A stretch of 50,549 bases of DNA, from contig DTTI01000006.1 of assembly GCA_012964825.1 (NCBI GenBank), positions 1 through 50,549 of the forward strand, in the 5' to 3' direction. The notes under the pieces were generated by a model. It worked only from the letters and a program-made list of their open reading frames with translations, searched no databases and was not told the origin of the DNA. Position 1 is the first letter of the stretch; each line of letters begins with the position of its first letter. Both the position numbers and the translations under genes were made by a program. Origin of the DNA: Candidatus Neomarinimicrobiota bacterium. Its GTDB lineage: Bacteria > Fidelibacterota > Marinisomatia > Marinisomatales > S15-B10. This document shows positions 9,936 through 17,939 of the stretch, one piece after another.

Positions 9936-11231
9936 TCAATAAAGGAGAAATTTCTGGCGAAACTGGTTAAACCTGATCAATTCTTCGGACCATGTGGCGG
10001 GGAGCTTCCTGATGTCTCTCTCCTGGGCAATGAAAATGCGAAGGTAGTTGTGCCCGTACAGCTTATCTACATAGTTGTTTCCCGTCCACTTGAATCGGCG
10101 GGGTTCAAGATGAGCGGTAAGGGAAAGGATCGTTATGGTAGTTCTCACTGAATCAAATCGGTCTGGATTTTCGATAACCAGTTTAACGCCATAACATTCC
10201 TGACCACGATAGATAGGATTTGAGACGATCGGCGACAGAGAATCAGGCATAAAAGTCACTTCACTGAAACGAACACCGGCCAGACCTGCTCTGTTCAGCC
10301 CCATGAGCAATTGATTGGGTACCAGCCACGGTGCACCCACGATCCTGTAGGGTTCGGACGTCCCTTCACCAAAAGAGAGGTTTGTCCCCTCCAAAAGGCC
10401 CGTCCCGACAGCGGCAGCCAGCGTCACCGGATCGGCAATCTCTTTCCAGAGAGGTGTCATGGTGAGGCCCGTTTCGTTCATCCACATTTCCCGGCGCCAA
10501 TTGGACATGGGAATAACCGTCAGGTCACAAGTAACGGACTGGCGGATCCATCCAGTCTCATTCACCATAAGGGCATACTCACCAACAGTCATCCCGTGGC
10601 GAATGGGCACGAGATGGTAACCCACGAAAGACTGGAACTGGGGCCTCACCACTGGCCCGTCAAGGATATTCCCATTTATCGGATTTGGCCGATCCAGTAT
10701 GATCACCGGTTTCTCGTACTCCGCCGCCGCTTCCATCACTTTGGTGACCGTTGTCATGAGTGTATGGAATCGCACCCCCGTGTCCTGCAAGTCTATAATC
10801 ACCAGATCCACCTCCCGAAGATCAAGTACATTGGGCCTGTACTCCCGCCCCCAAAGCCGTTTAATCTTGGCGTCAAATCTTTGATCCATACGGTCGGGCG
10901 GTGGCTTAAGGGAATGGACTGGATCGGTGAGGATACCATATTGCGGTGTGAAGATTATCTTTACATCGAACTTATCTTTCTTTTCCGCCAGAAGGTCCAG
11001 GAGATGCTTGCCACCCCTGTTCAGTGCACTCTGGTTTGTGAGGACCGCCAGTCGCTTGCCGCGGAGTTGATCAAACTTCATCTCCTGGAGGATATCGAGA
11101 CCTGTAAACACGCCTGGCAAAAAGCCCATGTCCGGAACAGGAACCACTCTGGAATGCTCAAACTCCTGACCTGCAAGAAATGCAGATACAAACAATAACA
11201 GACAGATTGTTATTTTCCGGAAGCGATTCAT
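9936..11231 (-). CDS. NamZ-like exo-beta-N-acetylmuramidase family protein (DUF1343)
   Basis: A 431-residue DUF1343 protein, the family of NamZ/YbbC, which removes MurNAc from the non-reducing end of peptidoglycan fragments. A signal peptide occupies about residues 5-22, so it acts outside the inner membrane. Conserved blocks are DLQDTGVRFHT (148-158), DRPNPING (180-187), GMTVGE, and EGTNLSFGEGTSEPY (281-295). Oddly, the usual P-E-H-G segment reads PQYG (96-99), which replaces a conserved acidic residue and may alter or abolish activity. ATG 11231 overlaps the symporter stop (ATGA); the longer frame from 11303 would hide the signal peptide. Confidence 0.85.
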   Translation of the reverse strand: MNRFRKITICLLLFVSAFLAGQEFEHSRVVPVPDMGFLPGVFTGLDILQEMKFDQLRGKRLAVLTNQSALNRGGKHLLDLLAEKKDKFDVKIIFTPQYGILTDPVHSLKPPPDRMDQRFDAKIKRLWGREYRPNVLDLREVDLVIIDLQDTGVRFHTLMTTVTKVMEAAAEYEKPVIILDRPNPINGNILDGPVVRPQFQSFVGYHLVPIRHGMTVGEYALMVNETGWIRQSVTCDLTVIPMSNWRREMWMNETGLTMTPLWKEIADPVTLAAAVGTGLLEGTNLSFGEGTSEPYRIVGAPWLVPNQLLMGLNRAGLAGVRFSEVTFMPDSLSPIVSNPIYRGQECYGVKLVIENPDRFDSVRTTITILSLTAHLEPRRFKWTGNNYVDKLYGHNYLRIFIAQERDIRKLPATWSEELIRFNQFRQKFLLY

Positions 11232-12670
11232 TTCTGAATGAGATGCATTGTGACAGATGTGCTTACCATAACAGACAGACCGATAAGTGTATACCACGGC
11301 CACGCCACGGCGGTAAAGCTAACAACGAAAACCATGACCGCAATGGAAGCGACAAAACCTGTTATGACCGATGAGGCAGGAAACTCCGCCTTCACTCTGC
11401 CCAAAAGAAAAAACCCAAGCAGACCACCATAGGTGAAGGAGGCGATTGCTAGGGCGATCTCCACCAGAGGCCCTTCCATTGATGTAAACAGTGTAGCTCC
11501 GCCGGCCAGCACAACAGTCCAGATGAGTGAAAGTAGGCGAGATGTACGGAGTGTATATAGATCAGGCATGAGCCACTTGATCCAGTCCGTCATGGTGGAA
11601 GAAGCCAGTGCATTGATGGACGAACTCAATGTTGACATGGCCGCTGAAAAAATTGCAGCAACAATGAGTCCCCGAAGGCCAACAGGTAGATTATTGATAA
11701 TGAACGTTGAGAAAACTTCGTTACTGTTTATGTCGGCGCCTTTGTAGTAAACCCATATCCCTATCCCAACCAGAAGGAAAAGAGCGAACTGGAAGAAAGC
11801 CATAAAACCGCTTCCTATAAGGGCTTTCTGCCCGTCCCTAGCGTTTCTTGCTGCCATAAGACGCTGAACCATAAGGTGGTCCGTGCCGTGGGAGGCCAGC
11901 GACAGAAACATCCCCCCTGCTATCGCAGTGAGAAAGTGGTACTGCTGAGTAACCGGATCGCCGCCGTGAAAAATAGCCAGTTTTCCTGCAGCCCGTGCTT
12001 CGGCGAAAATGGTTAACCACCCACCGTCCACCAAGATGCTCAACAGGCCCATAGTGACGAAAGCACCGATGATATAAATGAAAAACTGAATGGAATCGGC
12101 CCAAACCACAGACCGGATACCACCCAGAATGGTGTAGACAAGCGTAAACACCGCAATGACTGCGATGGAGGTGCCATATGACCAACCGGTAATCAGTGCC
12201 AAGGGAATGGCTGTCATGAAAAGCCGTACACCATCGGCCAGAATCCGCGTTACCTGGAAAACCAGTGAACCGAAGCGTTGGACCGATTGTCCCCACCGGT
12301 TGCGCAAAAATTCGTAGGTAGATTCTAACCCCTCTTCAAAATAGAGTGGCAACAAATATCGGGCCACGATCCATCGACCGGCAATGTACCCCAAAGCCAG
12401 CTGAAGGAACCCCAAGTCTCCCCAGTAGGCAACACCGGGAATGCTCAAAAAGGTGAGGACAGACGTCTCTGTGGCCACCACCGAAAGCATAATCATCCAC
12501 CACGGTAGATTTTGCTCCGCCAGAAAATATGATTTTGCTGAGGACTGTTTGCCCCCAGCCCAGAGTGCCACTCCGGAAACAATGGTCAGATAGCCAAAAA
12601 GAACAATAAAATCGACAGTCTGCACAAAATCAGGAGGACGTTTTGTTGAGAATCGCCTCCATGACTGCAT
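11228..12670 (-). CDS. Sodium:solute symporter (SSS family)
   Basis: A multi-pass inner-membrane symporter of up to 480 residues, with the SSS core motifs: SYFLAEQNLPWW after the first helix, TETSVLTFLSIPG, and GGIRSVVWADSIQFFIY in the middle. It belongs to the branch often found beside DUF1343 and NagZ genes, so the likely cargo is a murein-derived sugar or muropeptide taken up with sodium (inference). The start is unclear: ATG 12670 overlaps the GH3 gene by 41 bases, while GTG 12625 lies just after its stop and gives 465 residues starting close to helix 1. Its stop overlaps the NamZ start. Confidence 0.87.
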   Translation of the reverse strand: MQSWRRFSTKRPPDFVQTVDFIVLFGYLTIVSGVALWAGGKQSSAKSYFLAEQNLPWWMIMLSVVATETSVLTFLSIPGVAYWGDLGFLQLALGYIAGRWIVARYLLPLYFEEGLESTYEFLRNRWGQSVQRFGSLVFQVTRILADGVRLFMTAIPLALITGWSYGTSIAVIAVFTLVYTILGGIRSVVWADSIQFFIYIIGAFVTMGLLSILVDGGWLTIFAEARAAGKLAIFHGGDPVTQQYHFLTAIAGGMFLSLASHGTDHLMVQRLMAARNARDGQKALIGSGFMAFFQFALFLLVGIGIWVYYKGADINSNEVFSTFIINNLPVGLRGLIVAAIFSAAMSTLSSSINALASSTMTDWIKWLMPDLYTLRTSRLLSLIWTVVLAGGATLFTSMEGPLVEIALAIASFTYGGLLGFFLLGRVKAEFPASSVITGFVASIAVMVFVVSFTAVAWPWYTLIGLSVMVSTSVTMHLIQK

Positions 12671-17485: not shown

Positions 17486-17939
17486 ACTTCTCCATCAGAA
17501 ACTGTTTCAGAGCTTCAAAACTGTCAAATTCCCCTTCGCAGCAACCAAGGATCCAAGAGCTGATATCATCGAAGGGAATTTTCATCACCAGATATACAGG
17601 AATACTCAGACGATGGGCTGAGGTCACCTCCCCGTGGGTTCCTCCTCCTTTGAGAACAGTATCGTCCCAGAGACATATAACATAATCAATTTCGTTTTCG
17701 ATGGCATCCAAATCCCGCTTAATCAGTTTCCTCACAGTCGATTTGAACTGGTCCCGCTTACTAAGACGCCAGTAACGGAAGTTCTCAGACTCTTCATCAG
17801 TTAGTGTCTCATTTTGTATCACAACAGGATTAAAGACGGTGTGACCGATCTTATCTTTCAGCCAGACTGTCATCTCATCTCGCCAGGCTCGGCCCAGCTC
17901 CGGGGCATTTTCCATCCCGCCGGACAGGTAGGCCTTCAT
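17475..17939 (-). CDS. Nucleoside 2-deoxyribosyltransferase-like protein
   Basis: A 154-residue cytoplasmic protein that begins KAYLSGGMENAPELG, the Rossmann-like start of the nucleoside 2-deoxyribosyltransferase / DUF4406 superfamily. Further features are RDLDAIENEIDYVICLWD, with an Asp at the expected site, and GGGTHGEVTSAHRLSIPV, whose Glu occupies the position of the nucleophilic Glu in characterised transferases. Relatives act on nucleosides or nucleotide sugars, and the true substrate is uncertain. It overlaps the permease by 4 bases and the kinase by 11, so translational coupling suggests a role tied to one of them; this is not a standard part of murein recycling. Confidence 0.65.
   Translation of the reverse strand: MKAYLSGGMENAPELGRAWRDEMTVWLKDKIGHTVFNPVVIQNETLTDEESENFRYWRLSKRDQFKSTVRKLIKRDLDAIENEIDYVICLWDDTVLKGGGTHGEVTSAHRLSIPVYLVMKIPFDDISSWILGCCEGEFDSFEALKQFLMEKYVG

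Follow-up and report, generated by a model that had tools for sequence, protein, structure and literature searches.

A candidate peptidoglycan amino-sugar salvage operon, conserved across the Marinimicrobia, with an altered NamZ homolog

What is the shared function, if any, of six tightly packed genes at positions 9936-17939 on the minus strand of a contig from the Candidatus Neomarinimicrobiota assembly GCA_012964825.1? The genes code for a nucleoside 2'-deoxyribosyltransferase-fold protein, a BadF-type sugar kinase, an alanine racemase (alr), a NagZ glycosidase fused to a PF00144 serine hydrolase, an SSS-family sodium:solute symporter and a NamZ-family protein. We analyzed the 50,549-nucleotide contig (the window) together with the rest of the host genome (2.2 Mb, 98% complete) and related genomes. 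A preliminary description of the window had read the genes as a complete muropeptide catabolic pathway. Our results support a more limited version of this proposal. The locus probably serves muropeptide or amino-sugar salvage, and we estimate a probability of roughly two in three that it is a peptidoglycan amino-sugar salvage operon of the Marinimicrobia (Fidelibacterota) lineage.

All six genes are present, co-directional and in the order that had been described. As annotated, they overlap their neighbors by 4 to 76 nt, and the symporter starts at either ATG 12670 or GTG 12625. Pfam and NCBIfam matches for the NamZ, SSF, Glyco_hydro_3, Beta-lactamase, Ala_racemase and BcrAD_BadFG families lie well above their cut-offs. 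The limits set for the operon hold for its six-gene content but not for the ends of the run. The minus strand from 22344 to 7024 forms one tight gene run with intergenic gaps of -76 to +11 nt: polA, an ABC ATPase, an ABC-2 permease, the six genes, a gene for a 534-aa protein and a major facilitator superfamily (MFS) gene. Scans for promoters and terminators gave counts near the shuffled expectation.

The kinase (16544..17485) belongs to the BcrAD_BadFG family (PF01869, 75.9 bits). When the profile of its family was compared with the Protein Data Bank (PDB), the best match was the N-acetylmuramic acid (MurNAc)/N-acetylglucosamine (GlcNAc) kinase 8zo3 (E 4.6e-47); hexokinase 2e2n and NagK ranked lower, and Tannerella MurK was less close. 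The catalytic Asp (D105) is invariant in 16 family members. The residue preceding it is Ser in most of them, Thr in Tannerella MurK and Asn in 8zo3; an Asn is found there in most other sugar kinases compared and would crowd MurNAc (PMC10465942). In the 133-135 region the family keeps Gly-Gly, in contrast to an apparent Ser-Pro in Tannerella MurK. The Ser before the catalytic Asp is a small residue, like its counterpart in Tannerella MurK, but the Ser-Pro-Leu loop is absent. The specificity of the kinase could not be read from a tree, in which 16 of the 17 Marinimicrobia kinases fall in a clade of their own that is not firmly linked to MurK or NagK. We describe the protein as a probable MurK-like MurNAc/GlcNAc 6-kinase.

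The fusion gene (12630..15449) combines a Glyco_hydro_3 domain (PF00933, 294 bits) with a Beta-lactamase domain (PF00144, 231 bits). The GH3 half retains the Asp-His dyad of KHFPGHG..DSH and the Asp nucleophile (KHFPGHGNTGVDSH, IVTDAMEM), and its nearest solved N-acetylglucosaminidases include NagZ from Bacillus subtilis (3bmx). The PF00144 half, which is AmiE/PBP4B-like, retains the SxxK (SLTK), YSD and HTG (HTGFTG) motifs. Its best NCBIfam match is PBP4B, a protein encoded in the murQ operon of Escherichia coli (PMC5061867). An N-terminal Cys is common to the relatives, and the residues before it do not form a standard lipobox; the fusion is a probable periplasmic lipoprotein. The symporter (11228..12670) matches SSF (PF00474, 100 bits) and scores 180.4 against TIGR00813, below the cut-off of 184; its nearest solved structures are NIS, SMCT1, SMVT and the bacterial SSS protein 5nv9. 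An SSS-superfamily transporter thus shares an operon with a BadF/BcrAD kinase, as in MurTKQ-type MurNAc utilization.

We examined whether the cluster is conserved. The order kinase-alr-NagZ/PF00144 is kept in 23 of 23 Marinimicrobia loci (the window and 22 others), bearing out the clustering in relatives that the preliminary description had looked to. The kinase gene is directly followed by alr in every locus, and the NagZ/PF00144 gene comes next wherever the contig continues (two loci end within alr). The symporter and then NamZ usually follow, and polA lies upstream in 21 loci. The polA/ABC genes upstream and the 534-aa protein and MFS genes downstream are also syntenic in relatives. Kinase identity falls to 25-34% in other classes of the phylum, yet the gene order is unchanged there; four of the loci from those classes have no symporter or NamZ nearby. 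Because the order is kept down to about 25% kinase identity, we conclude that the clustering is selected and old, and that the conservation of order is far beyond chance. The same families are grouped in other phyla: one Elusimicrobiota locus (L181) combines a BadF kinase gene with namZ, anmK, murQ, nagZ and an SSS symporter gene, and in Oceanobacillus (L163) the kinase gene lies between a PF00144 gene and murQ. The layout varies in places. In two loci of family f3 (L038, L039), the NagZ/PF00144 gene and the symporter are set apart by roughly 4 kb that contain other open reading frames, and five loci of other classes (L094, L095, L119, L121, L122) have another, more distantly related SSS symporter after NamZ.

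MurQ had been reported as not seen. That statement is correct for the window but fails for the genome, in which we found a full-length murQ (361.6 bits against a cut-off of 302; G000:C73:4713-5585) outside the salvage operon. On contig C73, murQ is directly followed by anmK and a phosphohexomutase gene, and four relatives also have these three genes side by side. The locus (L020:4617-8126) continues with a polyprenyl synthase-like and a sugar-phosphate isomerase-like gene, again in the same order in four relatives. The murQ-anmK-phosphohexomutase locus may return GlcNAc-6P to UDP-GlcNAc without NagA.

These observations fit the following model, in which substrates, localization and direction of flow are predictions. 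In the periplasm, the GH3 (NagZ) half of the lipoprotein would remove GlcNAc from muropeptides, and its AmiE-like PF00144 half would remove their stem peptide. The SSS symporter would import free MurNAc, and probably also GlcNAc, for phosphorylation at C6 by the BadF-type kinase. MurQ would then convert MurNAc-6P to GlcNAc-6P and D-lactate, with AnmK channeling anhydro-MurNAc into the same step. GlcNAc-6P could pass to a NagB-LmbE-like fusion protein or, through the phosphohexomutase encoded beside anmK, back to UDP-GlcNAc. The canonical NamZ on contig C66, described below, would do the work of an exo-muramidase, and alr would be carried along in the operon as the cell's only alanine racemase gene.

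The NamZ-family protein of the operon lacks conserved features of a standard enzyme. The ybbC gene of B. subtilis has NamZ function. The operon homolog (9936..11231) contains both NamZ_N and NamZ_C domains (PF07075, 201 bits; PF20732, 132 bits), and its start is more likely ATG 11231, which forms an ATGA overlap with the symporter stop and is followed by a signal peptide. Membership of the family, as first described, is thus sound, but the protein does not look like an ordinary exo-muramidase. The window copy has PQYG for PEHG, no PSPN and GEGT for GRGT. The operon copies of eight family genomes show Gln for Glu in seven cases (PQ[Y/F/H]G) and PEFG in the remaining one; PSPN is gone, and the GRGT Arg is replaced by E, L or V. 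The PEHG Glu, which we take to be the proposed catalytic residue, is present in 18 of 18 canonical NamZ copies and in 4jja and 4k05. The GRGT Arg is less telling because 4k05 also lacks it. Of 67 columns near-invariant in the 18 canonical copies, 40 are fully retained in the operon copies and 13 are lost, among them E91, H92, Y120, Y149 and R280 (numbering of the C66 copy).

Seven of the eight family genomes with a readable operon NamZ contain a second copy elsewhere. PEHG and GRGT are intact in all seven of these, and also in a NamZ from a genome that lacks the kinase; in the host genome, the second NamZ (L021:5645-6913, minus strand, contig C66) has all conserved motifs intact. Relatives within the order are intermediate, with PEFG and GLGT in f3 and PEHG and GIGT in f5, and the syntenic NamZ proteins of other classes are canonical. 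The other classes, f5, f3 and f1 thus offer a natural series in which the motifs erode stepwise. Compared with a same-genus relative, the operon NamZ has a dN/dS of 0.106, which shows that purifying selection maintains the gene. Judged by its motifs, the operon protein probably does not work as a standard exo-muramidase; it may be inactive or repurposed. We tentatively propose that it acts without hydrolysis or hydrolyzes differently, for example by binding muropeptides or MurNAc in the periplasm as a partner of the symporter, that the second copy keeps the enzyme activity, and that the salvage locus dates back to early phylum members; taken as a whole, this proposal is rather unlikely.

Several results weigh against peptidoglycan salvage or narrow it. 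The loss of conserved motifs from the operon NamZ is one. The only NCBIfam match of the kinase is GlcNAc kinase (75 of 370 bits), and its preference for MurNAc or GlcNAc is not readable from the sequence. In an order-level survey, the kinase occurs in 13 of 130 genomes and a strong NagZ/PF00144 match in 84 of 130, so that many genomes of the order without the kinase still keep the fusion. Downstream steps are also incomplete: no TIGR00221 (NagA) match exceeds the cut-off in the genome, and NagB appears only in a divergent NagB-LmbE-type fusion (212 of 384 bits). This fusion (L194:190-2511, minus strand; 774 aa) has an HHDD motif, scores below all curated cut-offs, and is possibly a combined GlcNAc-6P deacetylase and deaminase. 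The host genome has no TIGR00901 (AmpG) match, although this search could overlook a divergent permease. A complete pathway, as claimed, is therefore not supported, and the claim of catabolism ends at GlcNAc-6P. The empty TIGR00901 search speaks against AmpG-based recycling as an alternative. In one member of the order without the kinase (G012, contig C209; L196/L197), an AmpG-like permease lies a few kb from the NagZ/PF00144 gene, possibly a swap of transport mode.

We compared the locus to characterized systems. In Tannerella forsythia, ybbC, murT (SSS), murK and murQ are co-transcribed, and MurT with MurK lets E. coli without murP grow on MurNAc (PMC5388701, PMC5790795). The window operon resembles this locus (Tanf_08345-08385) in joining an SSS transporter, a BadF-type kinase and NamZ/YbbC in a route to MurNAc-6P that is free of the phosphotransferase system (PTS). 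It differs in including the NagZ-PF00144 fusion and alr, in the position of murQ with anmK elsewhere, in the missing NamZ motifs and in a kinase closer to 8zo3, as well as in the missing AmpG match. NagZ (GH3), AmiE and NamZ also occur together in the murQ-murR-murP-amiE-nagZ-ybbC(namZ) cluster of B. subtilis, where they serve extracellular muropeptide breakdown (PMC5061867). In the window, a symporter and kinase stand in for the PTS transporter MurP, the NagZ and PF00144 hydrolases are fused, murQ lies outside the operon, and no MurR regulator is seen in the run. The GH3 and beta-lactamase architecture, with a signal peptide, is shared with RmNag3 from Rhodothermus marinus, whose gene was not reported beside salvage genes (PMC6987092).

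These precedents bear on the claims of novelty. The parts had been called unusual, a view that is not supported: the transporter, kinase and NamZ grouping is that of Tannerella, and the fusion is that of RmNag3. Salvage by symporter and kinase in place of a PTS holds up as a route, given the phylum-wide cluster, the match of the kinase to 8zo3 and the grouping of the same families with murQ and anmK in Elusimicrobiota, but the route was already published as murTKQ. Nor is muropeptide catabolism undescribed for the lineage. Fidelibacter multiformis IA91, a Marinimicrobia isolate, lives on muropeptides and converts MurNAc-6P to GlcNAc-6P and D-lactate by MurQ-type chemistry, and this reliance was traced to ancestors of the phylum (PMC11652737). 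That isolate belongs to another class (AB16) and has no peptidoglycan synthesis genes, whereas the host genome of the window carries a full-length murA. The cell is therefore not an obvious MurNAc auxotroph, and auxotrophy of the Fidelibacter type is unsupported for it. The novelty lies in this particular locus, its gene order across the phylum, the separate location of murQ with anmK and the altered operon NamZ.

A restriction compatible with peptidoglycan salvage is that the operon recycles only the cell's own wall turnover and has no role in feeding on other bacteria. The presence of murA, which suggests that the cell probably makes its own wall precursors, and the apparent periplasmic lipoprotein fit this restriction. 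The isolate of the phylum scavenges external muropeptides, however (PMC11652737), and recycling and scavenging are not separable by sequence alone. We regard the restriction as possible, with the odds leaning against it.

Salvage of GlcNAc from chitin oligosaccharides, with the GH3 domain as a chitobiase, the symporter importing GlcNAc and the kinase acting as a GlcNAc kinase, is unlikely. RmNag3 does hydrolyze chitobiose and chitopentaose (PMC6987092), the NCBIfam match of the kinase points the same way, and two pointers to peptidoglycan weaken because the operon NamZ is altered and alr is a housekeeping gene. However, the AmiE/PBP4B-like PF00144 domain is related to a murQ-operon protein (PMC5061867), the syntenic NamZ proteins of other classes keep their motifs, the kinase family groups with murQ, anmK and namZ in Elusimicrobiota, and the failure to find NagA also hurts GlcNAc catabolism. 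Finally, a purely historical clustering, with polA, alr and their neighbors as a housekeeping superoperon and no common pathway for the hydrolase, symporter, kinase and NamZ, would fit the upstream polA, the single-copy alr and the deoxyribosyltransferase-fold gene and ABC pair in the same run, but is very improbable given the order kept across classes at 25-34% kinase identity and the links of the same families to murQ in other phyla.

Peptidoglycan salvage would give a widespread, almost wholly uncultured marine phylum a candidate phylum-wide muropeptide-salvage locus; its one isolate uses wall fragments of other bacteria. It would also extend the symporter and kinase route for MurNAc beyond Bacteroidota. 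If a repurposed operon NamZ does sit in a salvage locus of early phylum members, the published dependence of Marinimicrobia on muropeptides gains a concrete genetic basis. Both NamZ catalysis and the choice between self-recycling and scavenging become testable with a few cloned genes.

Among the remaining genes of the run, the alr product (15442..16551; start more likely ATG 16551 from start-codon comparison) has Ala_racemase_N/C domains and scores 312.8 bits against TIGR00492 (cut-off 168). A profile search found no other alanine racemase gene in the genome, which rules out a dedicated catabolic role and makes alr a housekeeping gene, not the pathway component it had been taken for. The 154-aa protein at 17475..17939 has no Pfam match. 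Its AlphaFold2 model (pLDDT 91) matched the nucleoside 2'-deoxyribosyltransferases 6evs and 8pqs in a Foldseek search of the PDB, with a best E of 3.7e-05 and a TM of about 0.6, and Y4, D76 and E104 are invariant. The gene is present in the family and order clusters and in few clusters of other classes; it is a conserved neighbor with no obvious role in a sugar pathway. Upstream in the run lie the ABC-2 permease (17936-18688), the ABC ATPase (18685-19608) and polA (19612-22344). Directly after NamZ, the 534-aa protein (8322..9926), conserved in the family, has no Pfam match and gave an unreliable AlphaFold2 model (pLDDT 35); with an N-terminal signal-like stretch and a C-terminus of ...FVTYFQFW, it is a candidate outer-membrane barrel or channel. 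Just past the downstream end of the run, at 6575-6946, we identified by eye a small heavy-metal-associated (MerP-like) protein with a GMRCGACC motif.

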